Assembly: GCA_023910675.1 (NCBI GenBank) | Contig: JAAVWC010000017.1 | Coordinates: 1-64,000, forward strand | DNA: 64,000 nt | Direction: 5' to 3' | Source: Gemmatimonas sp. | GTDB taxonomy: Bacteria; Gemmatimonadota; Gemmatimonadetes; Gemmatimonadales; Gemmatimonadaceae | The notes under the pieces: model-generated | What the model saw: only the letters and a program-made list of their open reading frames with translations | Told to the model about the DNA's origin: nothing | Databases searched by the model: none | Position numbers and translations under genes: made by a program | Shown here: piece after piece, positions 2,153 to 21,809 of the stretch | Layout of the letters: the number at the start of each line of letters is the position of its first letter | Numbering within the stretch: the stretch's first letter is position 1

Positions 2153-2231
2153 GCGGGTGGTGATAGAGGGAAACAGAGCGCTGGGGCGCGTGTGACGGTG
2201 AAAACCAGCTGTCGCTACTGGCGGGGATACG

Positions 2232-4643: not shown

Positions 4644-4883
4644 GAGCAGCTCGTGCGGGGCACGGAGGAGAAGTACTTGATCCGAAACGACTTGGGCGGG
4701 CGCCGGGGAGATCGGCGGGCGTCGGGACGGGGAGGGGCGGTCGGGGAGAACGGGAGCGTCGGCGGCGTCGCAGCGGCGTGTAACGCGTGAAACAACCGAT
4801 AGTCGGAAACTCGCAATGGGAGCGCGTGGGCGCCAGCGCCGTTGAAAAACTCGGCGAAAAACGCCCTGAATCAAAAAAGAGTC

Positions 4884-4912
4884 TTGACAGTTCCCGCTCA
4901 CACTTGTTTCAT
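4884..4912 (+). promoter_or_regulatory. Candidate sigma70-type promoter for the SusCD block
   Basis: A perfect TTGACA at 4884-4889 is followed after 17 nt by TTTCAT (4907-4912), a 4/6 match to TATAAT. It lies about 250 nt upstream of the SusC start, in the 522-nt divergent gap (4644-5165) where nothing else is coded. The -35 box is strong and the -10 box is weak. Confidence 0.4.
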
Positions 4913-5165: not shown

Positions 5166-8100
5166 ATGGCGGTAGGCGTCCGTTGGTTGGCCGCGGCAGC
5201 AGCGGGTACGCTGCTCTCGGCGAGCCAGGTCAGTGCCCAGCAAACGGGCAGAGTCTCTGGCCGCGTGGTTGACTCCGCGACTGCCGGTGTGCTCGCAAAT
5301 GCATCGGTCCAAGTCGTCGGGACACAGGTCGGCACCTACACGCGTAACGATGGCGGCTTCCTGCTGCCAGCCGTTCCGGCCGGCCAGCAGCGGCTTCGCG
5401 TGTCGCGCATCGGCTATTCGGCTAAGGAGGTCACGGTCACCGTGACGGCCAACGGCCAGGCCAGTGTGGAAGTCGCGCTGAACGCGATTGCCGCGCAGTT
5501 GACCGGGGTGGTCACGACCGGGTACGGCCAGCAGCGAAAGGAAGCGATCACGGGCGCTGTCGCGACCATCAAGGGTGCTGATGCCAACGTCGGCGTGATC
5601 CCCAATGCGACCGGTCTGCTCACGGGTCGTGTCGCCGGTGTGAACGTGGTGGCCAACAACGGTGAGCCGGGCGCTGGCGCCCAGATTCGTATTCGTGGTG
5701 GCACGTCCATTTCGGCCTCCAACGAGCCGCTGTACGTCATCGACGGCGTGCCCATTCAAAATGATCAGACGGAAGCCTCGGGCATCGGTATCGGCGGTGG
5801 CGCGGCGCTGGCGCGTAATCCGCTCAACATGCTCAACCCGAGCGACATCGCGAACATCACGGTCCTCAAGGACGCCTCGGCGACGGCCATTTACGGCTCT
5901 CGCGGCGCCAACGGCGTGGTGCTCATCGAAACGCGCCGCGGCGCGGCCGGTGTCTCGCAGGTCGAATACGAAACGTTCGTCGCCGCCGCGTCACCGTCGA
6001 ACACGCTCGACGTGCTCTCGGGCAACGAATACCGCTCGTTCGTGCAGGGGCTCGTCACCTCGGGCAAGCTCGCCCAGTCGGCGCTGACCAACCTCGGCAC
6101 CTCCAACACCGATTGGGAGAAGGAGCTCATGCGCTCCAGCTCCACCGTCAACCACAACCTCTCGTTCACGGGTGGTACGAACACGACGCAGTATCGCGCG
6201 TCGCTCAACTACCTCGATCAGAACGGCGTGGTGGTGTCGAACGGTTTCCGTCGCTTCCAGGGGCGCTTCAACGCGAACCACAGCGCGATCGACGGCAAGC
6301 TCCGCCTGAACTTCAACATGACGGCGTCCAAGGTGGACAACGACTACCTCCCGTTCGAAAACACGGGTGGCTTTGAAGGCGGCGTCTTCACCAACATGGT
6401 GATCTTCAACCCGACGCGTCCCATTACGACGACGACGAACGGCATCTCGTCGTTCTACGAAATCGGCCCGGGCCGTCAGTCGGTGCGCAACCCCGTCGCC
6501 ATCGCCGAACAGGTGGCCGACGTCGCCACCACCAACCGTACGCTCGGGAACATCCAGGCGTCGTACAGCCTGACCGACTACCTCACGGCCTCCGTGAACG
6601 TCGGCACCGACCGCACGAGCGGTGTCCGCAAGACGTATCTGCCGCGTGCCAGTGCCGTCGGCGCCGAGTGGAACGGTCGTGCGCGTCAGGTGAACCGTGC
6701 ACTCAGCAACAACACGTTGCAGTCGCTCCTCACCTTCGCGCCGCGTCTCTCCGAGTCGCAGGAAATCGAAGTGGTGGGCGGCTACGAATACACCGACTTC
6801 GACAACGGCGAGTTCGGTGCCGAAGGCCGCAACTACCTGACCGATGCGTTCAGCTTCAACAACCTCGGTGGCGGTGGCACGCTGGTGGCGCCCTTCTCGT
6901 TCCGCGAGCAGAGCCGCCTGGTCTCCTTCTTCGGTAAGGCCAATTACAGCTTCAAGGACCGCTACTTCCTCACCGGCGTGATTCGCCGCGACGGTTCGTC
7001 GCGTTTCGGTGCCGGCAACAAGTGGGCCGTCTTCCCGGCCTTCTCGGCTGGCTGGAAGATCAGCGACGAAAGCTGGATGCAGGGCAAGGGCTTCTCGAAC
7101 CTGCGTCTGCGCGCCGGCTACGGCTTGCAGGGTAACCAGGCCGTGTCGCCGTACGCCTCGCTCATCCTCCTCGAGCCCAACGACGGCGCGCGCTATCCGT
7201 TCGGCGACAACATCGTTACCGGTGTCGTGCCCACGCGGAACGAAAACCCGCTCCTCAAGTGGGAGCAGACGGCGCAGTACAACGTCGCGGCCGAATTCGG
7301 CTTCAAGGACAACAAGTATACCGGTACGCTCGAGTACTACCGCAAGAACACCAGCGACCTGCTCCTCACGGTCGCCGTGCCGCAGCCGGCGCTCGTGCCG
7401 ACGCGTCTCGAGAATGTCGGCAGCCTGCACAACACCGGTATCGAATTCAGCTTCGACGCCAACCTGCTCGACAAGAAGGATCGCTCGTTCAGCACTGGCA
7501 TCGTGGCCTCGATCGAACGCAACACGGTGGATGACCTCGGTGGCCGTTCGTTCATCACGACGTCGAGCGTCTCCGGTCAGGGTCAGTCGGGTAACACGGC
7601 GCAGCGCATCATCCCCGGCCAGCCGCTCGGCACGTTCTGGGGCCCGACGTTCGTGAACGTGAATGCCGAAGGCAAGCAGGTGTTCAAGAACTACGACGTC
7701 ACGCGCACCAACGGCGTGATCACGAGCCGCACGGAAAGCGGCACGACGACGTCGCCCGACGCCGACGACTTCGGCATCATCGGCGATGCCAACCCGGCCT
7801 TCAGCCTCGGCTGGCGCGGCAACCTGCGCTGGAACAAGTTCGACATGAGCTACCTGTGGCGCGGTGAGTTCGGCCGCGATGTCTTCAACAACACGGCGCT
7901 CGTGTACTCCACGCAGTCGGCGGTCCTCCAGGGGCGCAACTTCCTCCGTAGCGCCCTCGACCAGAAGGACGCGCTGACCGAGCCCGCCGTCTACTCGTCG
8001 CGCTGGATCGAAGACGGCTCGTTCTTCCGCCTCCAGAACGTGACGGTTGGCTACACGTTCAAGATCCCGGGAACCAAGGCGAACACGGCGCGCTTCTTCG

Positions 8101-8249
8101 TGTCGGGCGACAACCTGCTCCTCTTCACGCCGTACTCGGGATACGATCCTGAGGTGTTCGTCGATGCCGGCCTCGCGTCGCGCGGCGTCGATTATCTCGT
8201 TTACCCGCGTGCCCGGACGTTCACGTCGGGACTCCGCGTCCAGTTCTGA
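5166..8249 (+). CDS. SusC/RagA-family TonB-dependent outer-membrane receptor
   Basis: A 1027-aa outer-membrane transporter that, with its SusD partner, imports oligosaccharides or other large solutes using TonB energy. In order: signal peptide ending near SQVSAQQ (about residue 26), a carboxypeptidase-regulatory-like domain (GRVSGRVVDSATAGVL..., about residues 27-105), the SusC-type linker TTGYGQQRKEAITGAV, the plug (GLLTGRVAGVNVV, IRIRGGTSISASNEP, YVIDGVPI), then a long beta-barrel ending in an aromatic residue (LRVQF). Length is typical of the family. It is followed 26 nt downstream by SusD, the invariant arrangement of these pairs. The substrate is unknown; neighbouring malQ and trehalase genes favour an alpha-glucoside, while the downstream CRTAC1/haloperoxidase genes point to a less usual role. 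Confidence 0.95.
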   Translation: MAVGVRWLAAAAAGTLLSASQVSAQQTGRVSGRVVDSATAGVLANASVQVVGTQVGTYTRNDGGFLLPAVPAGQQRLRVSRIGYSAKEVTVTVTANGQASVEVALNAIAAQLTGVVTTGYGQQRKEAITGAVATIKGADANVGVIPNATGLLTGRVAGVNVVANNGEPGAGAQIRIRGGTSISASNEPLYVIDGVPIQNDQTEASGIGIGGGAALARNPLNMLNPSDIANITVLKDASATAIYGSRGANGVVLIETRRGAAGVSQVEYETFVAAASPSNTLDVLSGNEYRSFVQGLVTSGKLAQSALTNLGTSNTDWEKELMRSSSTVNHNLSFTGGTNTTQYRASLNYLDQNGVVVSNGFRRFQGRFNANHSAIDGKLRLNFNMTASKVDNDYLPFENTGGFEGGVFTNMVIFNPTRPITTTTNGISSFYEIGPGRQSVRNPVAIAEQVADVATTNRTLGNIQASYSLTDYLTASVNVGTDRTSGVRKTYLPRASAVGAEWNGRARQVNRALSNNTLQSLLTFAPRLSESQEIEVVGGYEYTDFDNGEFGAEGRNYLTDAFSFNNLGGGGTLVAPFSFREQSRLVSFFGKANYSFKDRYFLTGVIRRDGSSRFGAGNKWAVFPAFSAGWKISDESWMQGKGFSNLRLRAGYGLQGNQAVSPYASLILLEPNDGARYPFGDNIVTGVVPTRNENPLLKWEQTAQYNVAAEFGFKDNKYTGTLEYYRKNTSDLLLTVAVPQPALVPTRLENVGSLHNTGIEFSFDANLLDKKDRSFSTGIVASIERNTVDDLGGRSFITTSSVSGQGQSGNTAQRIIPGQPLGTFWGPTFVNVNAEGKQVFKNYDVTRTNGVITSRTESGTTTSPDADDFGIIGDANPAFSLGWRGNLRWNKFDMSYLWRGEFGRDVFNNTALVYSTQSAVLQGRNFLRSALDQKDALTEPAVYSSRWIEDGSFFRLQNVTVGYTFKIPGTKANTARFFVSGDNLLLFTPYSGYDPEVFVDAGLASRGVDYLVYPRARTFTSGLRVQF

Positions 8250-8275
8250 TCACTCCGGACGAAACCGAACCGACC

Positions 8276-9847
8276 ATGCGAAATTCACACAAGACCCGCT
8301 TCGCGTCGCTCTGGCGCGCCGGTCGCATCAGCGCCGCGTTGCTCGCGGCGCCCGCGACGGTATTTACGGTGCAGGGTTGCACCGACCTTGAAGAGTCCCC
8401 GACCAGCGCCATCACCCCCAATAACTTCTTCAAGAACAGCGACGAAGTCATTGGCGGGGTGGCCTCCGTGTACGCCGCGCTCCGCGGCACCATGTGGGGC
8501 TACTACAACCTGAGTCAGGTCTCGTCGGACGAAAACGTCGTCCCCACGCGCGGCTCCGACTGGTTCGACAACGGCCGCTGGCTCGATCTGTATCGCCACA
8601 CCTGGACGCCCACGTCCGGTTCCGGGCTCGAAGACATTTCGGGTGTGTGGAACGACCTGTTTGGCGGCGTGGCTCGTGCCAACGTCGTGCTGCAGGCGCT
8701 CGAGACGACCGAAGTGCCCGACAAGGCCGTCGTGCAGGCGGAAATGAAGGCGCTTCGCGCGTTCTACTACTACCTGCTCATGGACTTCTTCGGCGGCGTG
8801 CCCATCGTCACGACCACCGAAGTCAAGCCGCGTGAGCAGGCCACCCGCGCCCAGCTGTTTGCCTTCGTCGAGAAGGAACTCACCGATGCGCGCGCTGCGC
8901 TCCCCGATGCATGGCCGGCCGCCAACTACGGCCGCATGACGAAGGGTTCGGTCGACGCCATCCTCGCCAACATGTACGTCAACGCGCAGGTGTTCACGGG
9001 GACCGTCACTCCCACGGGCCTTACCCGTGGCGCCGCCAAGTGGACCGAAGCGGCAGCCGCAGCGGACCGCGTGCTCAACTCGGGACGCTACAGCCTTTCG
9101 GCCAACTGGCGTGCGAACTTCACGGCGACGAACGAAAACTCGCCGGAAAACATCTTCGTCATCCGTCACAGCACCAAGGTGCCGGGTATCGGCCTGACGT
9201 TCGTGATGCGTGGTCTGCACTACAACTCGTTCAGCGCCTCGCCGTGGAACGGGTTCGCCACCATCGCCACCACGTACAACTCGTTCGACGATGCCGACGA
9301 CCGCAAGAAGGTCTTCCTGGTCGGTCCGCAGGTCGACTTGCTTACGGGGGCGCCGATCAAGGACCGCGCGGGCAACCCGCTGGTCTTTACGCCGGAAATC
9401 CGCGACGTCTCGCAGGCCGGTGAAGGCGAAGGTGCCCGCATCTACAAATACCCCGTCGACCCAGCCTTCAACGGCGGTGACAACGGCAACGACTACGTGT
9501 ACTTCCGTCTCGCCGAAATGATGATGGTCAAGGCCGAGGCCCTGAACGAACTGGGGCAAACGCCGGCTGCTGTGGCGCTCGTGAACCAGGTGCGTGCCCG
9601 CGCCTTCACCCCCGCCAAGCCGCTGGCCACCTCGCTGTCGCAGGCGGAACTCCGCGACGCCATCTTCAACGAGCGTCTGTTCGAGTTCGTCGGCGAAGCC
9701 AAGCGTCGTCAGGACATGATCCGTGCCGGCACGTACACCAACGCCCGTTTGTTCAAGCAGGCGTCGGCGCCGTTCCGCATCCTCATGCCCATCCCGCAGA
9801 ACCAGATCGAAACCAACCCCCTGCTCAAGCAGAACCCCGGCTACTAA
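8276..9847 (+). CDS. SusD/RagB-family surface lipoprotein
   Basis: A 523-aa solute-binding lid of the SusC channel, anchored as a lipoprotein (lipobox TVQGC, acylated Cys35, after an unusually long N-terminus). SusD features include the early segment TSAITPNNFF, the helical TPR-like part around ALRAFYYYLLMDFFGGVPIV, and the C-terminal family signature FNERLFEFVGEAKRRQDMIR. It directly follows SusC and shares its transcript. A perfect hairpin 29 nt after the stop may end or attenuate the SusCD message before the next lipoprotein gene. Confidence 0.95.
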   Translation: MRNSHKTRFASLWRAGRISAALLAAPATVFTVQGCTDLEESPTSAITPNNFFKNSDEVIGGVASVYAALRGTMWGYYNLSQVSSDENVVPTRGSDWFDNGRWLDLYRHTWTPTSGSGLEDISGVWNDLFGGVARANVVLQALETTEVPDKAVVQAEMKALRAFYYYLLMDFFGGVPIVTTTEVKPREQATRAQLFAFVEKELTDARAALPDAWPAANYGRMTKGSVDAILANMYVNAQVFTGTVTPTGLTRGAAKWTEAAAAADRVLNSGRYSLSANWRANFTATNENSPENIFVIRHSTKVPGIGLTFVMRGLHYNSFSASPWNGFATIATTYNSFDDADDRKKVFLVGPQVDLLTGAPIKDRAGNPLVFTPEIRDVSQAGEGEGARIYKYPVDPAFNGGDNGNDYVYFRLAEMMMVKAEALNELGQTPAAVALVNQVRARAFTPAKPLATSLSQAELRDAIFNERLFEFVGEAKRRQDMIRAGTYTNARLFKQASAPFRILMPIPQNQIETNPLLKQNPGY

Positions 9848-9875
9848 GCTGGTGGGGTAGGTTCACGGTAGTTGT

Positions 9876-9909
9876 CACGGCCTGCGTTCGCGATCGAACG
9901 CAGGCCGTG
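9876..9909 (+). terminator. Perfect 15-bp hairpin after SusD
   Basis: CACGGCCTGCGTTCG and its exact complement flank a 4-nt loop (CGAT). It sits between SusD and the next gene. No T-tract follows, so it may act as an attenuator or RNA-stabilising stem rather than a full intrinsic terminator. Confidence 0.5.
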
Positions 9910-9937
9910 GCATTCGCGGTAGATATCCCCTCGAGAT

Positions 9938-12900
9938 GTGAAACACTTTTTTCCGCGCCTGCTTCCGGCGCTCCCGCTCCTGGCCCTCACGGCATGCGCT
10001 GAGTCCACCGCGCACCGTGCCGACGCCCCCGCGGTCGGTTCCACGTTGTTCACGCAGATGCCCTCCGACTACACCGGCATCCGGTTCACCAACCGCGTCG
10101 TGGACTCGCAGGAGCGCAACGTCTTCACCTACCGCAACTTCTACAACGGCGGCGGTGTCGCGATTGGCGACCTCAACGGCGACCAGCGCCCGGAAGTCAT
10201 CCTTACGTCCAATCAGGATGGCCCCTCGCTGTACCTGAACCAGGGGCAGTTCCGTTTTCGCGACATCACCAAGGACGCCGGCTTTCGCGATCAGCAGCCC
10301 TGGACCACCGGCGTCACGCTCGCCGACGTCAACGGCGACGGGAAACTGGACATCTACGTGAGTCACGCCGGCGACGGCGAGCCAGCGACCCGCGCCAATA
10401 CCCTCTGGATCAATCAGGGCAACGGGGCCGACTCGGTGCCGACCTTCAAGGAAATGGCGCGCCAATACGGCATCGCCGATGAAGGTTGGTCCACGCACGC
10501 CGCGTTCTTCGACTACGATCGCGACGGGGATCTCGATCTCTTCGTCATCAACAACTCGCCGCGTCCGGTCAACAGCTTCGGCCTGCGCAACACGCGCGCC
10601 GAGCGTCATCCGTACGGCGGGCACCATTTCTATCGCAACGACGGGGAGCGCTTCACCGAAGTCAGCGAAGCCACCGGGTTGTTCAGCGCCGAAATTGCCT
10701 TCGGACTGGGTATCGGCGTCGGCGACGTAAATCGCGACGGCTGGCCCGACGTCTACGTCTCGAATGACTTCTTCGAGCGCGATTATCTCTACCTCAATCA
10801 AAAAAACGGCACGTTCAAGGAAGTGCTCGATCAAGTCATGCCGGTGTCGAGCTACTTCTCCATGGGCATGGACATCGGCGACGTGGACAACGATGGCTGG
10901 CCCGACCTGTACACCACCGACATGATGCCGGAAGACGAATTCCGCATCAAGACGACGGCGATGTACGAAGGGTGGGACGTGTACATGGCCAAGGTGCGTG
11001 ATGGATACCATCACCAGCTCATGCGCAACATGCTGCAGCGCAACAACGGCGACGGCACCTTCAGCGACGTGGGCTATCTCACGCGCACCGCCGAAACCGA
11101 CTGGAGCTGGAGTGCGCTCATTGCGGATCTCGATCTCGATGGCCGCAAGGATGTGTACGTGACGAATGGCCTCGCGCGCGATGTGACGTCGCAGGACTAC
11201 GTCGCATTTCTTGCCGATCGTACCACGATGCAACGCGAGGCCAGCGGACCGCGCGTTGATTTCATGCGTCTCATCAACGCCATGAGTTCCACGCCCATCC
11301 CCGACTACGCATTCCGTAACGACGGGAACTGGGCCTTCAGCAATCAGGCGAAGTCATGGGGCCTCGATACCCCCAATATTTCGAGCGGCGCGGCCTACGG
11401 GGATCTCGACGGCGACGGCGTGCTCGATCTCGTCGTGAACAACGTGAACGCCGAGAGCTTCGTGTATCGCAACAATGCACGGACGCTCCTCAAGACCCGG
11501 CACTGGCTGCAGCTGCGGCTCACGGGCGAGGGGCGCAACAGCCACGCCGTGGGCGCGCGCGCGACGCTCTTCGCGGCGGGCGATCGCTACCTGCAGGAGC
11601 TGTATCCGGCGCGCGGCTTCCAGTCGAGCGTCGACTACGCGCTGTCGTTCGGGCTGGGCGAGCACGCCCGTGTCGATTCGCTCGTGGTGGAGTGGCCCAA
11701 CGGGACACGCACGGTACAGGCGAATATCGCCGCTGATACGACCATCACCATCGCGCAGACAGCCAATGCGCCGACGGCCGCACCGTTTGTCGCGCCTGCC
11801 GTAACGCCGCTGCTCGTCAACACGACCGCGGCGTCGGGACTCGCCTTCGCGCACGCCGAGAACGACTACGTTGACTTCGACCGCGAACGGCTCATCCCGC
11901 ACATGCTCTCCACCGACGGGCCGGCGATGGCCGTTGGTGATGTCAATGGCGACGGTCTCGACGACGTGTACCTGGGGGGCGCGAAAGAGCAGGCGGGAAA
12001 GCTCTTCGTACAATCGGCGGCGGGCACGTTCGCGCCGCTGACCAACGCCGCGTTCGATCTCGATGCGGCGTCGGAAGATGTCCACGCACTCTTCTTCGAC
12101 GCCGATCGCGACGGAGATCGCGACCTGTACGTCGTGAGCGGCGGCAATGAATTCAGCGAAGACAGTCCGGCGCTGCAAGATCGGCTCTATCTCAACGACG
12201 GACGTGGACGCTTCACGCGCGCGGCGAACGCCCTGCCGGCCACGCTCACCAGTGGGAGTGTGGTAACCGCAGGCGATATCGATGCCGACGGCGATCTCGA
12301 TCTCTTCGTGGGTGCCCGCAGTATCCCGTGGCGTTACGGAATCGACCCCAGCAGTCAATTGCTGCTGAACGATGGCCGCGGTCACTTCACCGATGTCGTG
12401 GCGAATGCGCCCGGGCTCAAGACCATCGGCATGGTCACCGACGCGCTCTGGCACGACATCGACGGCGATCGCAAGCTCGACCTCATCGTCGTCGGCGAAT
12501 GGATGCCCGTGGTGGTGTACCGAAACCGTGGTGCCGGAAAGTTCGAACGCCTCATGGCGAAGGGACTCGAGAAGAGCGACGGCTGGTGGACCCGCATTAT
12601 GGCCGCCGACCTCGATGGCGACGGGCGCAGCGAGTTCGTGCTTGGCAACTTCGGCCGCAATATCCGGCTGCACGCCAGCGCCGACGAGCCGCTCACCATG
12701 ATCGTGAAGGACTTCGACAAGAATGATTTCGTCGAACAGGTCATAGGTATGTACAACGGCGGCAAGCAGTATCCGCTGGTGCTGCGCGATGACCTCATCA
12801 AAGCGGTGCCGCCTTGGAAGGCACGCTTTCTCAACTTCAAGGATTACGCGCTCAAGACGCTCGACGATGTGGTGCCCATCGCCGAGCGCAGCGATGCGGT

Positions 12901-13291
12901 GGTGAAGCAGGCGTATCGTTTCGAAAGCGCCATTCTGCGGCGTGGCCCCGATGGCGCCTTTGCGTTCGAGCCGCTGCCGCTGGAGGCGCAGATGGCGCCG
13001 GTGTTCGGGTTGGCCATTCGTGATGTCAACGGCGACGATCGCCAGGACATTCTGCTCGCCGGCAACTTCGATGGCGTGAAGCCGGAGTTCGGACGTATGG
13101 CCGCCAGCGATGGCCTCGTGCTGCTTGGTGGTGACAAGGGTACGTTCACCGCGCTGCGACCGGCGGAGAGCGGATTCCGCGTACCAGGACAAACGCGTGG
13201 TATTGCTACGGTCCGTACCAAGCGCGGAGTCCAGGTGATCGTCGCCCGCAACAACGCTGCTCCTCTCGTTTTTTCCATGGGTCGCCCATGA
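9938..13291 (+). CDS. CRTAC1-like FG-GAP/VCBS lipoprotein with ASPIC/UnbV domain
   Basis: A 1117-aa exported protein starting at the GTG at 9938; the leader KHFFPRLLPALPLLALTAC carries a lipobox with Cys20. It is built from beta-propeller FG-GAP repeats with calcium-loop motifs (DVNGDGKLDIYV, DYDRDGDLDLFV, DVNRDGWPDVYV, DLDGDGVLDLVV), an ASPIC/UnbV-type segment in the middle (ELYPARGFQSSVDYALSFG...VVEWPNG), then a second propeller (DVNGDGLDDVYLGG). Such proteins bind calcium and usually act in surface adhesion or ligand binding; no catalytic residues are recognised. Its stop overlaps the next start (ATGA at 13288). A paralogue lies one gene downstream (14670-18058). Genes of this type often follow SusCD pairs in Bacteroidota and relatives, but the function is not established. 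Confidence 0.9.
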   Translation: MKHFFPRLLPALPLLALTACAESTAHRADAPAVGSTLFTQMPSDYTGIRFTNRVVDSQERNVFTYRNFYNGGGVAIGDLNGDQRPEVILTSNQDGPSLYLNQGQFRFRDITKDAGFRDQQPWTTGVTLADVNGDGKLDIYVSHAGDGEPATRANTLWINQGNGADSVPTFKEMARQYGIADEGWSTHAAFFDYDRDGDLDLFVINNSPRPVNSFGLRNTRAERHPYGGHHFYRNDGERFTEVSEATGLFSAEIAFGLGIGVGDVNRDGWPDVYVSNDFFERDYLYLNQKNGTFKEVLDQVMPVSSYFSMGMDIGDVDNDGWPDLYTTDMMPEDEFRIKTTAMYEGWDVYMAKVRDGYHHQLMRNMLQRNNGDGTFSDVGYLTRTAETDWSWSALIADLDLDGRKDVYVTNGLARDVTSQDYVAFLADRTTMQREASGPRVDFMRLINAMSSTPIPDYAFRNDGNWAFSNQAKSWGLDTPNISSGAAYGDLDGDGVLDLVVNNVNAESFVYRNNARTLLKTRHWLQLRLTGEGRNSHAVGARATLFAAGDRYLQELYPARGFQSSVDYALSFGLGEHARVDSLVVEWPNGTRTVQANIAADTTITIAQTANAPTAAPFVAPAVTPLLVNTTAASGLAFAHAENDYVDFDRERLIPHMLSTDGPAMAVGDVNGDGLDDVYLGGAKEQAGKLFVQSAAGTFAPLTNAAFDLDAASEDVHALFFDADRDGDRDLYVVSGGNEFSEDSPALQDRLYLNDGRGRFTRAANALPATLTSGSVVTAGDIDADGDLDLFVGARSIPWRYGIDPSSQLLLNDGRGHFTDVVANAPGLKTIGMVTDALWHDIDGDRKLDLIVVGEWMPVVVYRNRGAGKFERLMAKGLEKSDGWWTRIMAADLDGDGRSEFVLGNFGRNIRLHASADEPLTMIVKDFDKNDFVEQVIGMYNGGKQYPLVLRDDLIKAVPPWKARFLNFKDYALKTLDDVVPIAERSDAVVKQAYRFESAILRRGPDGAFAFEPLPLEAQMAPVFGLAIRDVNGDDRQDILLAGNFDGVKPEFGRMAASDGLVLLGGDKGTFTALRPAESGFRVPGQTRGIATVRTKRGVQVIVARNNAAPLVFSMGRP

Positions 13292-14673
13292 GTAACGCTA
13301 CGGTACGGTCATTCACGCGCGCCGTGCGCGGTATGCGCCTGGTGCGTACGAGCTGTGTCCTGCTGCTGGTGGCCGCCGGCTGTCAGTCGAAGCCAAGCGC
13401 ATCGCCGGAATCGCTCAACTCGGCGGAGCCACTGCACGAAGCCATGGGGCAGCTCACGAGCACCATGGTGTACGACATCTTCAGTCCGCCGCAGGCGAGC
13501 CGGGTGTACAGCTATGCGAGCATCGCTGGCTACGAGGCGCTGCGACAGAGCGACACCAGCTGGCGTTCGCTGGCCGTCCAGGTGCGCAGTATGCCCGCGG
13601 TTCCAGCGCCCGATCGCAGCAAGGAATATTCCTACGCCCTCGCCGGTGTGCGGGCGATGCTCACCGTGAGTCATCAGCTGACCTTCTCGCGCGAGCGCAT
13701 GGACTCCGTGCGCACCGCCATATCGCAGCGCTACGAGTCGTCGCTGCCCGCCGATGTGTATGCGCGCAGCATTGCCTATGGGGACACCGTCGCGCGTCAC
13801 GTACTGGCGTGGGCGAGCAAAGACAAGTTCAAGGAGTCGCGCGGACTCCCGAAGTTCAGCGTGACCCGGCAACCCGGACGATGGATTCCCACACCGCCAG
13901 CGTACATGGACGCGGTCGAGCCGAACTGGGGAACCGTGCTGCCGTTCGCCATGGACTCGGCGACCCAGTTCCGCCCGCCGGTACCCTTTGCGTTCGACTC
14001 TACCAAGGGCACGCCCTTCTACGCGCAGGCGCTCGAAGTGTACGACACCGGTCGCAATCTCACCGGAGAGCAGCGCGCCATTGCCGCCTTCTGGGATTGC
14101 AACCCGTACGTCATGAACGTGCAGGGCCACACCATGTTCGCCACCAAGAAGATCACGCCGGGCGGCCACTGGATGGGCATTGCCGGTATCGCCGCGCGCA
14201 AGGCCAACGCCACGGCACTGCAGACGGCCGATACTTACGTGCGCACGGCGATCGCGCTCGCCGACGGCTTCATTGCCGCGTGGGAAGAGAAGTTCCGGTC
14301 GGGCGTCATCCGCCCGGAAACCGTCATCAATGCGTACATCGACGAGAAATGGGCGCCACTGCTCCAGACGCCGCCATTCCCGGAGTATCCTAGCGGACAT
14401 AGCGTGATTTCGACGTCGGCCGCGCAGGTCCTCACGGCCATCTACGGTCAGAACTTCGCTTTCGCCGATTCGTCCGAAGTGCCGTACGGCATGCCGGTGC
14501 GTTCGTTTGCCAGCTTTGACGCTGCCGCAAACGAGGCCGCCATCAGCCGCCTGTACGGCGGCATTCACTATCGTCAGGCGATCGAAGAAGGACAGCGCCA
14601 GGGCAAGCAGGTTGGGCTCAATGTGGTGGCGCGTGTCATCACGAAGCCCGGGACGACTGTCGCCGGCCGGTGA
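13288..14673 (+). CDS. Vanadium-dependent haloperoxidase / PAP2-family lipoprotein
   Basis: A 461-aa exported protein with lipobox LVAAGC (Cys32; an alternative in-frame start at Met16 gives a more usual signal length). The vanadate/phosphate-binding signature of the acid phosphatase-haloperoxidase superfamily is complete in its core: KX6RP (K335, R342, P343), PSGH (P368-H371) and SRX5H (S420, R421, H427). The Asp usually found four residues after the last His is Ala here. The fold and residues support either vanadate peroxidase or phosphohydrolase chemistry; sequence alone does not decide. It is translationally coupled on both sides (ATGA in front, GTGA behind) between two CRTAC1-like genes, so the three products are probably made in fixed proportion at the cell surface. 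Confidence 0.88.
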   Translation: MSNATVRSFTRAVRGMRLVRTSCVLLLVAAGCQSKPSASPESLNSAEPLHEAMGQLTSTMVYDIFSPPQASRVYSYASIAGYEALRQSDTSWRSLAVQVRSMPAVPAPDRSKEYSYALAGVRAMLTVSHQLTFSRERMDSVRTAISQRYESSLPADVYARSIAYGDTVARHVLAWASKDKFKESRGLPKFSVTRQPGRWIPTPPAYMDAVEPNWGTVLPFAMDSATQFRPPVPFAFDSTKGTPFYAQALEVYDTGRNLTGEQRAIAAFWDCNPYVMNVQGHTMFATKKITPGGHWMGIAGIAARKANATALQTADTYVRTAIALADGFIAAWEEKFRSGVIRPETVINAYIDEKWAPLLQTPPFPEYPSGHSVISTSAAQVLTAIYGQNFAFADSSEVPYGMPVRSFASFDAAANEAAISRLYGGIHYRQAIEEGQRQGKQVGLNVVARVITKPGTTVAGR

Positions 14674-17600
14674 AGCTTTGGCGCGTAGGACCTCGTGTCT
14701 ACGGGGCCGTGCTGCTGGCGTTCACGTGCATAGCCATCGGCTGTACGGAGAAGGCCCCATCTGGTGACGCGGTGGCCACAGCTGCACCGTCGCCCGGTCC
14801 GCGCGCGTTCGAGTTGCTGCCGGCATCACGTACCGGCATCAACTTCGAAAACCGCCTGCCGGAATCGCCGGAGTTCAGCATTCTGAATTACCTCTACTAC
14901 TACAACGGCGGTGGTGTCGCCGTTGGCGATGTAGACGGTGACGGGAAGCCCGACGTGTACGTGTCGTCCAACCTCGACGGCAACAAGCTGTACCGCAATC
15001 GCGGCGACTTCCGCTTCGAAGACATCACCGACAAGGCCGGTGTGAGCGGACCGCCGGGATGGAAGACGGGCGTCTCCATGGCCGATGTGAATGGCGACGG
15101 CGCGCTCGACATCTACGTGTCGGCGGTGAACTACCTCACCATGCACGGCCGGAACGCGCTGTATATCAACAATGGCACCGGCGAATTCACGGACAGCACC
15201 GACGCGTACGGACTCGCCTTTTCCGGCTTCTCCACGCAGGCGCTCTTCTTCGACTACGATCGCGACGGCGACCTCGACCTCTATCTGCTCAATCACTCGG
15301 CGCACACCGAGCGGCAGATTGGTGTTGCGGCCCGTCGCGATGTGCGGCACCCTACGGCCGGCGACCGCCTCTATCGCAACGACGGCGCCCGCTTCACCGA
15401 TGTGAGTGCTGCCGCCGGTATCTTCGGTGGCGTGGAAGGGTACGGCCTCGGCGTCGTCGCCAGTGACGTGAACAGCGACGGCTGCATGGATCTGTATGTG
15501 GCCAATGATTTTCAGGAGAACGACTTTCTGTACCTGAACGACTGCCGCGGCCACTTCACCGAAGTCGGCACGTCGTCGTTCAGTCACACGACGCGCTTCT
15601 CCATGGGTGCCGACGCCGCCGACATGAACGATGATGGGCGTCCCGACCTCATGACGGTCGACATGCTCCCCGAGCAGGAATCCATCTTCAAGACGTCGGC
15701 CAGCTACGAAGGATGGAATCTCTTCGATATGCGGTTGCGCGCCGGCTACTCGGTGCAATACCCGCGCAATGCGCTGCAGCTCAACCGCGGCGATGGATCG
15801 TTCGCCGAGATCGGATTGCTCGCCGGTGTGGCGGCGAGTGACTGGAGCTGGGGGCCGCTCTTCGCGGACCTCGACAACGACGGGCGCAAGGATCTGTTCA
15901 TCACGAACGGCATTTACCGTCGTCCGAACGATCTCGACTACATCAATTACATCGGGAACGAAGCAGCACAGGCGGCACTCGCGCGCGGTGTCACGCGGGC
16001 GGAGAATCAGGAGCTGCTCAAGCGGATGCCGCAGATTCCGCTCCCCAATCATGCCTATCGCAACGAGGGGGGACTTCGGTTCACCAACATGGCCGAAGCG
16101 TGGGGGTTGGGCGACAAGGGCTTCTCGAATGGGTCGGTGTACGCCGATCTCGACGATGATGGCGCACTCGACCTGGTCGTGAATCGCATCAATGCTCCGC
16201 TGGCCGTCTACCGCAGTCGCATGCGGGAGCTACCCAACGCCGGTCATTACCTGCAGGTCAAACTTGTCGGCAATACGCGGAACACCGACGGAATTGGCAC
16301 GAAAGTCATTGCCGTGACCGGGACGCATCGCCAACTGCTGGAGCAGCAGCCGGTGCGTGGCTTCCAGTCGAGCGTCGACCGGCGGCTGCATTTCGGATTC
16401 GGCACACAGACGACCGCCGACTCGCTCATCGTTATCTGGCCCGATGCCCGCTATCAGGTCTTGACCGGTGTGGCGCTCGATCGCGCCATCACGGTGCATC
16501 AGGACAGCGCTACGGGCACGTGGCAGTATCCGCGCGCCACGGTTCCCACGGTACTCGATGTGGCCCCGCTGCTGCGGGCGGCGCGTGTGCACGTCGAGAA
16601 CGATTTCCTCGACTACAATCGCGAGCCGCTCATGCCCCACGTGGTGTCGGCGGAAGGGCCGGCGCTGGCGGTGGGCGATGTGAATGGCGACGGCCTCGAC
16701 GACGTATACGTTGGCGGCGCCAAGTGGCAGCGTGGTTCGTTGCTCGTGCAGCAGCCCAATGGACAGTTCCGGGAGTCGAGCGTCGCGACATTGGCCGCCG
16801 ACAGTGTGGCCGAAGATGTCGACGCATTGTTCTTCGACGCCGATAATGATCGCGATCTCGACTTGTACGTCGTGAGTGCCGGCAACGAGTTCTGGCGCGA
16901 GTTCGACGCACTCGATGACCGGCTCTATCTCAACGATGGTCGCGGTAGCTTTACGCGTTCAACGACGGCGCTTCCGGCGGGTTTCCGCGAAAACGGGAGT
17001 GTCGTCACGGCGGGTGACTTCGACGGCGACGGCGATCAGGATCTTTTTGTCGGGACTCGCGTCGTTGCCCGCGAATACGGTCGCACCCCGCAAAGTCACT
17101 TGCTGCAGAATGACGGATTCGGGGCGCTTTACCGACGTCACCGACGCGATGGCCAAGGGATTGAGCGAGGCCGGTCTGGTCACCGATGCCAAGTGGCTCG
17201 ATGTCGATGGCGACAAGGCGCTGGATCTGGTGGTCGTCGGTGAGTGGATGCCGGTGCGCGTCTGGTACAATGCCAAGGGGCGCCTCGAAGAGCGCGCCGC
17301 CGTGTCGGGCTTTGTCGGCACGGAGGGGTGGTGGAACAGTGTGACCGTTGCCGATCTCAACCACGACGGCGCTCCCGATCTGGTGCTTGGCAATGTGGGG
17401 CTGAACACCCTCCTCAAGGCCAGTGCCAACGAACCGGTGCAGATGTACGTGCATGACTTCACCGGCACCGGCAGCACCAAGCAGATCATCACCCGCTACG
17501 TCGGTGGCACGTCGTATCCCCTCGCTGGCCGCGATGAACTGGTGAAGCTCATGCCCGCCATTCGTGCCAAATACCCGTCGTTTGCGTCCTTCGGGGCTAG

Positions 17601-18058
17601 TCGACTCGAGGACATTTTCGACAAGGGCGGAGATCGCCAAGGCCGCGCGCCGCGACACACATCGGTTCGAGAGTGCGGTGGCGATGAACGATGGTCGTGG
17701 ACACTTCACGGTGACCACGCTGCCTGTCGAGGCGCAATTCTCGATCGTGTTCGCGTCGCTCGTCTTCGACGCGAATGGGGACACGCACCCGGATATTCTG
17801 CTCGCCGGCAATCAGTACGGTGTGCCGCCGGTGCTCGGTCGCTACGACGCCTCGCGTGGGACGTTGCTGCTTGGCGACGGTCGAGGCGGCTTTCGTGCCG
17901 CCGACCCCTCGCAGGCTATTCCGCTCGACGGACAGATCCGGGGGCTCGCGTTCGTCATCCGCGGCACGAAAGCCCCTCTGCTGGCAGTCGCACGGAACAA
18001 TGCGACGTTGCAACTTCTGTCGTCCGCTCGATTCACTCCTCTCACGCCATCCAGATGA
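14670..18058 (+). pseudogene. Second CRTAC1-like lipoprotein, interrupted by two +1 frameshifts
   Basis: The GTG start at 14670 overlaps the previous stop. The leader has candidate lipoboxes (AFTC20, AIGC25). The first 815 or so codons read cleanly as FG-GAP repeats (DVDGDGKPDVYV, DYDRDGDLDLYL) and an ASPIC/UnbV segment (EQQPVRGFQSSVDRRLHFG). An extra G in the GGGG run at 17121-17124 shifts the frame, and a second extra G at 17625-17627 shifts it again; alignment with the intact paralogue at 9938-13291 locates both. Removing them restores a 1128-aa protein ending at 18058, whose stop overlaps the symporter start. As read, the product ends at 17243. Both changes are in G homopolymers, so this could be a real double lesion or a base-calling error. 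Confidence 0.85.
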
Positions 18059-19779
18059 CCCAGCTGACCACCATCGACTATGTCGTGATGGCCATCTACT
18101 TCGTCGTCGTCCTCGGCATTGGCTGGGTACTGCGGCGCAAGATGCGCACCTCGACGGATTTTTTCCTGTCAGGTCGGTCGCTCCCTCCCTGGGTGACCGG
18201 TCTCGCGTTCCTGTCGGCGAACCTGGGTGCGCAGGAAGTGATCGGCATGGGGGCGTCGGGTGCCAAGTATGGCATTGCCACGGCGCACTTCTACTGGATT
18301 GGCGCCATTCCGGCCATGGTGTTCGTGGGCATCTTCATGATGCCGTTCTACTACGGCTCGAAGGCACGTTCGGTCCCCGAGTATCTCAAGCTCCGCTTCG
18401 ACGAAAAGACGCGCACCTTCAACGCGTTGGGCTTCGCGGCGATGACGGTGTTTTCGAGCGGCGTCTCCATGTACGCCATGGGCAAATTGCTCAACCTGCT
18501 CCTGGGTTGGGACTTCGACACCAGCATCCTGGTGTCGGCGGTCATCGTGCTCGCGTACGTGACGCTCGGTGGCCTCACGAGCGCGATCTACAACGAAGTG
18601 CTGCAGTTCTTCATGATCGTGTTCGGATTCGCGCCGCTGGTGTGGGTGGGGCTCAGGCAGGTGGGCGGATGGGACGGGCTCACCGGCAAGCTTGCGGCGG
18701 CCGCCACGCAGCGCGGATTGCCGGAGTACGCCTACACGAACGTGTGGCAGGGAATGGGGTCGGCAACGACCAACTCCATCGGTATCGAGTGGTTCGGCAT
18801 GGTGATGGGCCTCGGCTTCGTGTTGTCGTTCGGCTACTGGTGCACCGACTTTCTGGTGGTGCAGCGCGCGATGGCCGCGGACAGCATGACCGCCGCACGG
18901 CGTACCCCGCTCATTGCCGCCGTGCCCAAAATGCTCTTCCCGTTCCTCGTGATCGTGCCCGGCATGATTGCGTTGGCCATGGGTGACAACATCATTCCGG
19001 CCAAGCTCACCGCGGCGGGGATGCCGCTACTCGACACCAATGGCAACGTGGTGCTCGACTACGACCTGGCCACGCCCATGATGTTGGTGAAGCTCTTCCC
19101 CACTGGCATGCTGGGGTTGGGCCTCACGGCACTGATCGCGTCGTTCATGTCGGGCATGGCCGGCAACGTCACCGCGTTCAATACCGTGTGGACGTACGAC
19201 ATCTATCAGGCGCACATCAAGAAGACCGGTACCGACGAACACTATCTGTGGATGGGGCGTGTCGCGACGGTGGGCGGTATCGCGCTGTCGGTAGCCGCCG
19301 CATATGTCGCGGGTGCCTTCAACAACATCATGGAGTTCCTGCAGCTCGTCTTCGCCTTCGTGAACGCGCCGCTCTTTGCGACGTTCGCGCTGGGGATGTT
19401 CTGGAAGCGCAGCACGGGACACGGTGCGTTCTGGGGCCTCGTAGCGGGCACGGTCGCCCCGGCCATTCACCACGGCATTTCGCTGGCCAACGGCGCGGAA
19501 ATTGGCGTAAAGGGCGGCTTCTTCGGGGTGCTGCTCAACTACCCCAGCGAAATGGCGCAGACCTTCTGGACCGCCATTGCGGCGTTCACGACCTGCTTCG
19601 TCGTCACGATCGTGGTGAGTTTCGCGACCGCGCCACGTCGCGAAACAGAACTCGAGGGGCTGGTGTTCTCGCTCACGCCCAAGCCGAAAGATGATGCCCG
19701 TGTGTGGTACGAGAAGCCCAGTGTGTTTGCCGTCGTCGTCATGGTGGCGATGATCGGCTTGAATGTCACCTTCTTCTGA
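18055..19779 (+). CDS. Sodium/solute symporter (SSS family, SGLT-like)
   Basis: A 574-aa inner-membrane protein with about 14 hydrophobic helices. It begins MTQLTTIDYVVMAIYFVVVLG and carries the SSS hallmarks SGRSLPPWVTGLAFLSANLGA (split here as helix 2) and YVTLGGLTSAIYNEVLQ. The arrangement resembles bacterial Na+/sugar cotransporters. The ATG at 18055 overlaps the stop of the CRTAC1-like gene, so it is the last member of the coupled run and presumably takes up the small product released by the surface proteins. A small membrane protein follows 15 nt downstream. The substrate (sugar, inositol or other) is not determined by sequence. Confidence 0.9.
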   Translation: MTQLTTIDYVVMAIYFVVVLGIGWVLRRKMRTSTDFFLSGRSLPPWVTGLAFLSANLGAQEVIGMGASGAKYGIATAHFYWIGAIPAMVFVGIFMMPFYYGSKARSVPEYLKLRFDEKTRTFNALGFAAMTVFSSGVSMYAMGKLLNLLLGWDFDTSILVSAVIVLAYVTLGGLTSAIYNEVLQFFMIVFGFAPLVWVGLRQVGGWDGLTGKLAAAATQRGLPEYAYTNVWQGMGSATTNSIGIEWFGMVMGLGFVLSFGYWCTDFLVVQRAMAADSMTAARRTPLIAAVPKMLFPFLVIVPGMIALAMGDNIIPAKLTAAGMPLLDTNGNVVLDYDLATPMMLVKLFPTGMLGLGLTALIASFMSGMAGNVTAFNTVWTYDIYQAHIKKTGTDEHYLWMGRVATVGGIALSVAAAYVAGAFNNIMEFLQLVFAFVNAPLFATFALGMFWKRSTGHGAFWGLVAGTVAPAIHHGISLANGAEIGVKGGFFGVLLNYPSEMAQTFWTAIAAFTTCFVVTIVVSFATAPRRETELEGLVFSLTPKPKDDARVWYEKPSVFAVVVMVAMIGLNVTFF

Positions 19780-19794
19780 CCCGGGACAACGACG

Positions 19795-20010
19795 ATGAGT
19801 GGTGGAGCCTCTATGGATCTTCGTTTGCCGATCGGCGGACTGTTCCTGGCGTTGGGCGCGATTCTGGGCGTGTACGGCCTCATCACCAACGGCGACACGG
19901 CCATGTACGAGCGCAGCGGTGGCCTCAACATCAACCTGGTGTGGGGCGGGGTGATGTTGGTGTTTGGCAGCATCTTCTACGGGCTGGCGCAGCGCGCCGC
20001 CCGTCGCTGA
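19795..20010 (+). CDS. Small two-helix membrane protein
   Basis: A 71-aa hypothetical protein with two hydrophobic stretches (GGLFLALGAILGVYGLI and LVWGGVMLVFGSIFYGLA) separated by a short polar turn, and a basic C-terminus. A GGTGGAG Shine-Dalgarno-like site at 19801-19807 favours the inner ATG at 19813 (65 aa) over the ATG at 19795. It directly follows the symporter on the same strand, suggesting an accessory subunit, but no family function is known to me. Confidence 0.65.
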   Translation: MSGGASMDLRLPIGGLFLALGAILGVYGLITNGDTAMYERSGGLNINLVWGGVMLVFGSIFYGLAQRAARR

Positions 20011-20022
20011 CCTGCGCCGGCG

Positions 20023-20655
20023 TTAGCGTTCGTGCGCCGGTCCACGCCGCAGGCGGAATTCGCGGTCGATCAGCCAGTGCGCCTGATCGGCCTGCGGCGC
20101 GATGAGTCGATGCTCGATGCCCAGCACGGTATCGATGAACGGCTCCCAGATGTCGCGGTTGCGCGCCATGCGACGCTCGTGCGTGTCCGTGTGCGTGGCT
20201 TCGAGAAAGACGCGCACATCGAGGCCGTCGAGCATGAGCACGTAGGTGCCTTCGACGATGAGAACCTGCGTACCGGCAAAGGTGCGCGTTTCCGCATCGA
20301 ACCGGTTCTCCGGATAGTTCACCAGCGGTGCCGTCACCGTACCGCCGATACGAAACGCCGCGATGTGTTCGCCGATGCGTGCCAGCTGGACCTCCTGCGG
20401 GCCAACCGTGCCGATGTCGCGCACGCGTGCTTCGTGATTGGTGCGCGGCGGACGGACGAAGTAGTTGTCCTGATTGATGAACGCCGTCGGCACACCACGC
20501 GCATTCAGCATCGTCGACAGCTGCATGGCCGCAGTGCTCTTGCCGCTCCCCGATTCACCGGCCACGCCGATGACGAGCGGCGCCCCCTGCAGCCGGCCCT
20601 CTTCGTCCAGCCCGTCGATCAGTGCAGCCACCGCGCTCCCGCTCAGCGTGTCCAT
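20023..20655 (-). CDS. Uridine kinase-like P-loop kinase
   Basis: A 210-aa cytoplasmic P-loop enzyme of the uridine kinase/phosphoribulokinase group. The Walker A motif GESGSGKST spans residues 33-41; a Walker-B-like segment TQVLIVEGTYVLML follows, and RMARNRDIWEP resembles the lid region. The start codon overlaps the end of the glycosidase-like gene by 13 nt, so the two are co-transcribed. In this sugar locus it may phosphorylate a sugar or a nucleoside; uridine kinase activity is only family inference. It converges with the small membrane protein gene, with 12 nt between the stops and no visible terminator. Confidence 0.75.
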   Translation of the reverse strand: MDTLSGSAVAALIDGLDEEGRLQGAPLVIGVAGESGSGKSTAAMQLSTMLNARGVPTAFINQDNYFVRPPRTNHEARVRDIGTVGPQEVQLARIGEHIAAFRIGGTVTAPLVNYPENRFDAETRTFAGTQVLIVEGTYVLMLDGLDVRVFLEATHTDTHERRMARNRDIWEPFIDTVLGIEHRLIAPQADQAHWLIDREFRLRRGPAHER

Positions 20656-21800
20656 GGCAACTCCGGTGTGTCGAGCCGCTGTGCGACATCCATGAGCACA
20701 AAACCGGTAGCGGTGTACGCCATGCCGGTCGTGCCCAGCGCGAGCCCGGTCTCTCCGTGGAAGTACTCCTCGAAGGCGAAGTCCGTGAGCGTCGCCAGAT
20801 GAGCCGCCGTGAGGTCGTACAGACGCTGCGCGTCGGCGTGGCGGCCATGCCGCGCGAACGCGATGCCAAGCCACCCGAGCCACACGGGCCAAATGCCGCC
20901 ATTGTGGTACTCGTGCGGGCGATTGCGAAAGTCGTGCAGATGATAGCCGGCGAGCGCGGGCCACTCGTCGTCGCCTTCCTGAATGACGGGCGAGAACGCG
21001 GGCGGCAGGGTGGCGTGCGCGAGGTACGTATCGCGCAGCGCATCAAGCACGGCGTCGGATCGCGACGGAATCAAGTTCGCCGCCGCGAGCAGGGCGCACG
21101 CGGCAAGATCGACATGTTCGTCGGTGCGCACCGGAGAAATCGCGGCCACGGGAAACCGTCGTGTGCCACCGTAGCGCCACGCGCCGGACGGCCAGAACCG
21201 TTCGTCGATCGTCGCTGCAATGTGCGACGACTTCTCCAGCCAGTCAGCTCGATTCGCCACGCGGGCGAGAACCACCAGCGCCATGGCACGCAGCACCTGA
21301 TCGTACAGGATGTAGCCGTCGAACGGATACTCGTCCGCCCAGTTTCCGCCGGCAGGGACATACAACAGATGGCGTCCGTTGTATTCGATGCCATTCAGCA
21401 ACGCCACGGTACGCTCCACGGACACCGCGAAATCGTCGTAGGTCGCGTACCCGGTGCTGCACACAACTCCCACCGCGTACAGGTACCAGGTGGCCGAGTC
21501 GAAGCGCGGCGCGAGCGTGCCAAAACTCACGTGATAGGTCCCGGCTGCGTCGCGCCGGAAGTTCGACGCGATCTGTCCTTCCGGGCCCTGGAGGTCGCGC
21601 AGCTGTTCGAGGGTGCGCAACAACCCGGTCGTGATCGTGGCGTCGTGCACCGCGACACCAGCCAATCCCGCCATGATCGCATCGCGTGCGAAAATGGCCG
21701 CATAGTTCGCTACGCTGCTGCGTGAGGCGCGGATGCCAATCGGCGTCGCGAGCTCATGCAGCAGCGAGATGGATTCGTTGAACGGAAGTTCGTCCTTCAT
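20643..21800 (-). CDS. (alpha/alpha)6-barrel glycosidase-like protein
   Basis: A 385-aa protein without a signal peptide. Helical repeats and motifs such as NYAAIFARDAIMAGLAG, WADEYPFDGYILYDQVLRA, PEGQIASNF and EYHNGGIWPVWLGWLG are typical of six-hairpin glycosidases (neutral invertase GH100 or amylo-1,6-glucosidase type). I cannot fix the family or substrate. It is divergent from the MFS sugar transporter with only 9 nt between the two start codons, and it overlaps the kinase gene downstream. Together they look like an import-hydrolyse-phosphorylate route for a disaccharide. No Shine-Dalgarno sequence precedes this ATG. Confidence 0.75.
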   Translation of the reverse strand: MKDELPFNESISLLHELATPIGIRASRSSVANYAAIFARDAIMAGLAGVAVHDATITTGLLRTLEQLRDLQGPEGQIASNFRRDAAGTYHVSFGTLAPRFDSATWYLYAVGVVCSTGYATYDDFAVSVERTVALLNGIEYNGRHLLYVPAGGNWADEYPFDGYILYDQVLRAMALVVLARVANRADWLEKSSHIAATIDERFWPSGAWRYGGTRRFPVAAISPVRTDEHVDLAACALLAAANLIPSRSDAVLDALRDTYLAHATLPPAFSPVIQEGDDEWPALAGYHLHDFRNRPHEYHNGGIWPVWLGWLGIAFARHGRHADAQRLYDLTAAHLATLTDFAFEEYFHGETGLALGTTGMAYTATGFVLMDVAQRLDTPELPWTR

Positions 21801-21809
21801 GGAGAATCG

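Follow-up and report, generated by a model that had tools for sequence, protein, structure and literature searches.

Sus-type alpha-glucan loci combine a SusC/SusD pair with glycoside hydrolases (GH) of families GH13, GH97, GH65 and GH77, and to our knowledge the classic Sus locus carries neither a CRTAC1 pair nor a haloperoxidase. Vanadate and phosphate sites are common to the PAP2/haloperoxidase superfamily, and the structures 4cit and 4usz, entered in the PDB as vanadium-dependent haloperoxidase, are those of the vanadium iodoperoxidase VIPO1 of Zobellia galactanivorans. 4USZ is named as the Zobellia iodoperoxidase in the excerpted passages of a study of the marine flavobacterium Arenibacter C-21 (PMC5064120). 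According to these passages, iodide uptake by this bacterium depends on O2, Ca2+ and glucose, for which a source of peroxide can substitute, the genome contains at least five VIPO homologues, and a membrane glucose oxidase together with a haloperoxidase was proposed; no gene is assigned to the uptake in that part of the paper. In B12 uptake, the beta-propeller lipoprotein BtuG partners the TonB transporter BtuB (PMC10404256, as excerpted). Here, we analysed a 64,000-nucleotide stretch of Gemmatimonas sp. (positions 1 to 64,000 of contig JAAVWC010000017.1, assembly GCA_023910675.1; hereafter the window), in which SusC, SusD, a CRTAC1-like lipoprotein (CRTAC1-A), a haloperoxidase of the Zobellia VIPO type, a second CRTAC1-like lipoprotein (CRTAC1-B) and an SSS symporter form one line of six genes. 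This is very probably a Sus-type alpha-glucoside uptake locus, with CRTAC1 and the VIPO-type haloperoxidase as its regular partners.

The six genes occupy 5166-19779, all on the plus strand. Families were assigned by Pfam and NCBIfam scans of the open reading frames (ORFs) of the window, and lipoboxes were identified by eye. SusC and SusD are adjacent, as in a SusCD utilisation locus (PUL), with a gap of 26 bases, and the last four genes overlap by four bases at each junction, reading ATGA at 13288-13291, GTGA at 14670-14673 and ATGA at 18055-18058. The ORF list shows no gene from the end of the symporter (19779) to 20010. The initial annotation had described this block with its three overlaps and had taken three of the four overlapping genes for lipoproteins; the ORFs, the profiles and the bases themselves bear out the block, and the lipoboxes LTAC, AAGC and AIGC agree with the predicted lipoproteins. 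The UnbV_ASPIC domain scored above its family cut-off and the CRTAC1 fold was also recognised, with a second propeller at residues 622-1117. Compared with murine CRTAC1 (PDB 9etn), the window protein gains a second propeller and a lipid anchor. The likeness to BtuB-BtuG is a beta-propeller lipoprotein beside a TonB transporter; BtuG, however, consists of one seven-bladed propeller and closes the barrel in the manner of SusD, whereas the window has a SusD of its own and a CRTAC1 with two propellers and an ASPIC domain. Two ASPIC/UnbV domains were found in the whole draft genome (84.87% complete, 52 contigs), and both belong to this block.

The arrangement was then followed through 61 genomes of relatives, of which 37 were Gemmatimonadaceae. 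A haloperoxidase match of some kind was found in 31 of the 61; ten, own genome included, carry the gene at full length with at least 59% identity; in G045, a partial gene lies at a contig end. A draw from the phylum gave 19 genomes among 298 with the haloperoxidase at E up to 1e-100. When 23 Gemmatimonadota loci were viewed (L033-L042, L055 and 12 more), leaving those that end at contig edges out of the denominators, CRTAC1-A was upstream of the haloperoxidase in 22/22, CRTAC1-B downstream in 20/20 (in some with one or two genes interposed, namely GH97, GH13 or a small plug-domain gene) and SusC-SusD upstream of CRTAC1-A in 19/19. The overlap between CRTAC1-A and haloperoxidase was retained in eight of the nine relatives L033-L041, L039 being the exception, and that between CRTAC1-B and symporter in all five close relatives worked out (L033, L035-L038); in the distant L055 and G457, the symporter apparently starts some 100-180 bases further on and the overlap is apparently lost. 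Within Gemmatimonadota, gene order and four-base overlaps have persisted while the proteins diverged by about 40%, and the overlaps are kept more than by chance. More distant haloperoxidases of the order had CRTAC1-like neighbours in six of six loci (L043-L048), and no CRTAC1 match was found in the loci of four weaker homologues (L049-L052). As a separate observation, the haloperoxidase of L041 is followed closely by a short gene in the other orientation (3401-3982), which encodes little beyond a SusC plug domain and whose product resembles a lipoprotein without a barrel; similar hits occur in L039, L056, G447, G511, G612, G614 and G627, before CRTAC1-B or the contig end.

Outside the phylum, genes of the sampled loci were longest-ORF calls labelled by blastp, so that counts of SusC and SusD are lower bounds. 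Among 118 evenly drawn Cytophagales genomes, an E-value cut-off of 1e-40 gave 93 VIPO-like matches in 41. Of the best 60 of these 93, anchor genome included, 40 had CRTAC1 in the upstream run of same-strand genes and 33 had it as the immediate upstream neighbour, with SusC recognised in the run in at least 15. A VIPO-type gene was present at E up to 1e-150 in 74 of 199 Flavobacteriaceae genomes (75 matches), and one to three CRTAC1 genes stood directly upstream in 18 of the 20 loci hand-picked down this list and opened. The order SusC, SusD, CRTAC1, haloperoxidase was seen in 10/10 genomes chosen among good hits rather than sampled, VIPO-type and CRTAC1 genes also neighboured SusCD in one Rhodothermaceae locus (L078), and a search for related loci placed the main CRTAC1 cluster in 40 of the best 80 of 580 loci, many on short contigs. 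On a FastTree tree of 70 rows, the label 'solo' needed 10 changes against 17.5 in shuffles (none of 500 as low), a contrast inflated by near-copies; the few changes suggest that CRTAC1 and haloperoxidase were paired early or came together again on a small number of occasions. The synteny that the initial annotation had proposed to check was thus found in both Gemmatimonadota and Bacteroidota, and its own ground for dropping the idea of a conserved outer-membrane gene set, a lack of conserved synteny, falls away.

Other settings of the enzyme were noticed among these loci. In 11 of them (e.g. L084, L101, L128), a VIPO-like gene follows an FAD amine oxidase and precedes a globin near a GntP permease, as assigned by Pfam on one representative each, and the oxidase is a possible source of peroxide there. 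In 16 of the 20 flavobacterial loci (L213-L232), the gene after the haloperoxidase encodes a protein of about 300 amino acids from a single BLAST cluster; the one flavobacterial copy scanned was GyrI-like by Pfam, and a relative in L088 had no Pfam hit.

The best solved relative of the haloperoxidase is 4cit/4usz (E 4.6e-141), aligned full-length over residues 19-449, and the remaining PDB matches were at E 5.6e-6 or worse. It shares with VIPO1 a lipobox-like N-terminus and the vanadate-site residues K, R, S, G, H, R and H: K335, R342, S369, G370, H371, R421 and H427 are invariant among nine aligned orthologues and lie in the motifs K335-x6-R342P, PSGH (368-371) and SRLYGGIH (420-427). It also has Y274 and F364, which align with Y263 and F353 of VIPO1, residues reportedly mutated in that enzyme; the orthologue in L040 carries F instead of Y274. 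In the 70-row tree, the window enzyme and VIPO1 fell on the same 50-row side, and the fork holding VIPO1 (91%) joins it to L155 and L158 rather than to the window enzyme. The enzyme of G198 (locus L213), probably a Zobellia genome, is 98% identical to VIPO1, and its gene is immediately preceded by three CRTAC1 genes; the characterised enzyme therefore has a near-copy in the same kind of neighbourhood. The window enzyme differs in being only 47% identical to this copy, its halide use is a prediction, and its locus adds an SGLT-type symporter, a trehalase and GH100-like genes. The initial annotation had put forward a vanadate- or phosphate-type active site. The site stood, as that of a VIPO homologue; of the two chemistries, an iodoperoxidase as closest solved relative would favour oxidation over phosphatase activity, which sequence by itself does not let one read. 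Zobellia vIPO3 is upregulated on fresh Ascophyllum versus alginate and is discussed with algal defence (PMC9296495, in the passages excerpted), behaviour that would fit a peroxide or halogen role, and these passages make no link to a locus.

The surroundings of the block pointed to alpha-glucosides (Table 1). The carbohydrate-active enzymes expected of a SusCD utilisation locus are present as GH77, GH37 and the GH100-like protein, which scored far under the cut-off of the NCBIfam glucosylglycerate hydrolase family (29.9 of 550 bits). The gene divergent from SusC resembled, by eye, a glycogen-debranching-type helical glycosidase.

Table 1. Genes of the block and of its surroundings in the window.
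Feature	Position	Strand	Evidence and remarks
GH77 4-alpha-glucanotransferase (MalQ)	680..2437	-	PF02446 E 7.9e-166
Conserved gene divergent from SusC	2232..4901 (ORF)	-	No Pfam/NCBIfam match; next to SusC in several relatives
SusC/RagA TonB-linked outer-membrane transporter	5166..8249	+	TIGR04056 E 1.5e-204; ORF open from 4842
SusD/RagB lipoprotein	8276..9847	+	SusD_RagB PF07980 E 9.4e-33; lipobox VQGC
CRTAC1-like double-propeller lipoprotein A	9938..13291	+	UnbV_ASPIC E 1.3e-19 and FG-GAP repeats; lipobox LTAC
Vanadium-haloperoxidase/PAP2 lipoprotein, Zobellia VIPO type	13288..14673	+	PAP2 E 4.6e-10; lipobox AAGC
CRTAC1-like lipoprotein B	14670..18058	+	UnbV_ASPIC E 8.7e-20 (first piece); lipobox AIGC; two frame breaks
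SSS symporter	18055..19779	+	SSF PF00474 E 4.2e-56
PRK/uridine-kinase family kinase	20023..20964 (ORF; true start probably near 20680)	-	PF00485 E 6.8e-12
GH100-like alpha-glycosidase	20643..21800 (likely start 21800 within ORF 20643-22970)	-	PF12899 E 4.2e-11
SUC1/SLC45-type MFS disaccharide transporter	21756..23174	+	8bb6 SUC1 E 1.9e-20
GH37 trehalase, lipoprotein	23171..24814	+	PF01204 E 1.9e-145; lipobox LAAC; overlaps MFS gene by ATGA

Three of these flanking genes, the GH100-like one and those for the kinase and the transporter, have homologues behind the haloperoxidase in the flavobacterial loci L226-L229 taken together. The GH100-like protein is 32% identical to its homologue in L226, of which the best PDB hit is an alkaline invertase (E 7e-8), the kinase 38% identical over 197 residues to that of L226, and the SUC1-type transporter 44% identical to that of L228; a GH37-type trehalase is present in L228 as well, and a GH97 gene in L226. 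In a reverse test on the 199 Flavobacteriaceae, the GH100-like protein had hits in 19 genomes, nine close (54% identity or more) and ten distant. Eight of the nine close homologues lie under 5 kb from a VIPO gene on the same strand (seven of eight without the query genome), and the genome of the remaining one, G285, had no VIPO at the E-value cut-off used; none of the ten distant hits was within 5 kb on the strand of a VIPO gene. Among the 37 Gemmatimonadaceae, the haloperoxidase module was present in 7/7 genomes with a trehalase against 3/30 without (Fisher p 1.2e-5, uncorrected for kinship), and trehalase and module stood on one contig within about 10 kb in 5/5, the contig ending first in G017 and G035. 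In G005, only a short match to a trehalase C-terminus was noticed behind the transporter gene (L036, 1558-1653), with no trehalase in the genome, a pattern suggestive of gene loss.

Elsewhere, the sugar genes are of other kinds. GH97 or GH13 genes occur in some Gemmatimonadota loci, and GH97, GH65, GH13, GH31, maltose phosphorylase or GlpF/K/D genes in other module loci. Some Cytophagales loci contain an alpha-1,2-glucosidase (7fe3, E 4e-231), an oligo-1,6-glucosidase, maltose phosphorylase and GH31, and some LacI, sugar kinases and GlpF/GlpK/GlpD-type genes; LacI was identified in a Bacteroidota locus only. The locus thus resembles Sus-type alpha-glucan loci in joining SusCD to alpha-glucoside enzymes and transporters, and differs from them in its constant CRTAC1 pair and haloperoxidase. 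The large ligand suggested by the initial annotation is not supported by these neighbours; they indicate alpha-glucosides, among which trehalose, maltose and those of sucrose type are small. The nearest solved relatives of the symporter, whose SSF membership is that of SGLT-type sugar symporters, are SGLT1 and vSGLT (7sl8, E 1.4e-57; 2xq2, E 7.6e-56).

How the parts might work together can be put only tentatively, and we consider the whole chain plausible without thinking it the probable outcome. TonB-powered SusCD would move trehalose-, sucrose- or maltose-like alpha-glucosides over the outer membrane, and the calcium-propeller lipoproteins may sit with SusCD, holding the ligand or the complex, like BtuG on BtuB. 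The symporter would take up glucose freed by the lipoprotein trehalase, with disaccharide brought inward by the MFS transporter. Lipid-anchored in the envelope, the haloperoxidase might use H2O2 from around sugar oxidation and a halide, iodide in the best-studied relative, and turn them into hypohalous acid; it would in this way clear peroxide at the import site, and the acid could hit competitors or prey cells. The iodide uptake of Arenibacter C-21, alike in its need for a sugar or a peroxide source, O2 and Ca2+ and different in coming from a marine flavobacterium, is the sole physiological lead.

Several observations weigh against this reading. A Rhodopirellula vanadium haloperoxidase linked to VIPO-like sequences is a chloro/bromoperoxidase (PMC12871659, as excerpted), and because of this the halide choice is not readable from the residues. 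No peroxide-producing oxidase was found among the annotated ORFs of the window, and these organisms may not meet enough iodide. Acidic residues after the lipobox averaged 1.08 in the haloperoxidase against 2.71 in SusD (n = 7 for SusD, crude detector), so that export of the haloperoxidase to the surface is not supported by this predictor, unlike that of SusD. Two sugar contacts, in vSGLT numbering, appear to be missing from the symporter (E88 to Y and Q69 to E), N64 and Q428 being kept. The core of the module is regular and the sugar genes vary: most Cytophagales loci sampled keep the core without them. A recognised sugar gene was in the same run in 10 of the 40 Cytophagales loci with CRTAC1 (a ROK gene alone in L201, L208 and L211; at least two kinds in six) and in none of the 20 without CRTAC1, and a trehalase was in the region in one of the 60, the anchor genome. 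Finally, seven of the 20 flavobacterial loci (L213-L217, L219, L221) have near the module, on the other strand, a large gene for a protein with a calcineurin-like phosphoesterase domain, assigned by Pfam on the L120 copy.

This last gene would suit an enzyme that works as a phosphatase, its PAP2-type site binding and removing, before uptake, the phosphate of a phosphorylated sugar or polyol that is imported or bound at the surface, such as glucosyl-glycerol phosphate polymers. The PAP2 match and the site shared across the superfamily agree with this, as do the GlpF/GlpK/GlpD-type genes and the alpha-1,2-glucosidase in several Cytophagales loci. However, the nearest full-length solved relative is an iodoperoxidase, the VIPO1 residue set is retained, and no glycerophosphodiesterase family appeared among the annotated neighbour clusters, which are part of all clusters; we consider a phosphatase unlikely. 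Alternatively, the purpose may be halide acquisition, in which iodide or bromide would be oxidised at the surface, SusCD and CRTAC1 would import the oxidised or protein-bound halogen and sugar would supply the peroxide. The glucose, oxygen and calcium dependence of iodide uptake in Arenibacter C-21, the three CRTAC1 genes next to VIPO1 in the Zobellia-like G198 and the 30 of 40 Cytophagales CRTAC1-VIPO loci without a recognised sugar gene speak for it. We rate it as distinctly unlikely, since described SusCD systems transport glycans and peptides, the sugar linkage is strong in part of the loci and the lineage of the window need not encounter much iodide.

The enzyme could instead halogenate or oxidise a phenolic or glycan ligand and so enable its uptake by SusCD, close to the initial idea of surface action on the imported ligand before uptake. 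The enzyme and importer genes are neighbours, and in L065 CRTAC1 is separated from the haloperoxidase by genes for an amidase and a member of the glyoxalase/dioxygenase superfamily; yet the annotated recurring catabolic clusters target plain alpha-glucosides or glycerol. No sign of enzyme action on the imported ligand was seen, and such modification is very improbable. That CRTAC1 and haloperoxidase form an independent unit merely travelling with SusCD loci, with no working link, is improbable. It would account for the 20 of 60 Cytophagales VIPO-like genes without CRTAC1 in the run, one type of which has methyltransferases as annotated neighbours; it sits poorly with an order and overlaps that survive about 40% divergence in Gemmatimonadota, with an order that survives across phyla, and with the low number of 'solo' changes on the tree, allowing for its inflation by near-copies.

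Each family of the alpha-glucoside locus proposed here was already known, and we found no paper on the combination: no published description of SusCD with CRTAC1 and haloperoxidase came up in a literature search without most subscription journals, and the searchable papers stated no purpose for Zobellia-type iodoperoxidases in such loci or for bacterial CRTAC1. VIPO-type enzymes and bacterial CRTAC1 emerge as regular neighbours of SusCD in Gemmatimonadota and Bacteroidota, partly in alpha-glucoside loci, and through this regular neighbourhood the purpose of both families becomes testable. A bolder and doubtful extension is that both would be dedicated subunits of a TonB-driven SusCD import machine, a membrane complex coupling sugar uptake, calcium and peroxide/halide chemistry, the purpose being to feed on trehalose, sucrose and glucosyl-glycerol leaking from phototroph cells that it damages, or a halide uptake paid in sugar.

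Like the sugar-catabolic neighbourhood, the frame breaks of CRTAC1-B were absent from the initial annotation. The gene is open from 14670 to about 17121, continues one frame on and ends in a third frame as ORF 17564-18058; the ORFs in the window are thus 14670-17243 and 17564-18058, with breaks at about 17121 and about 17.5 kb, and the sequence of the first piece runs about 40 residues beyond the break. Because the relatives checked, among them L033 at 97% identity, keep a single open frame, the breaks are specific to the present draft and reflect sequencing error or recent decay. Both fall within about 450 bases of the window (17100-17564).

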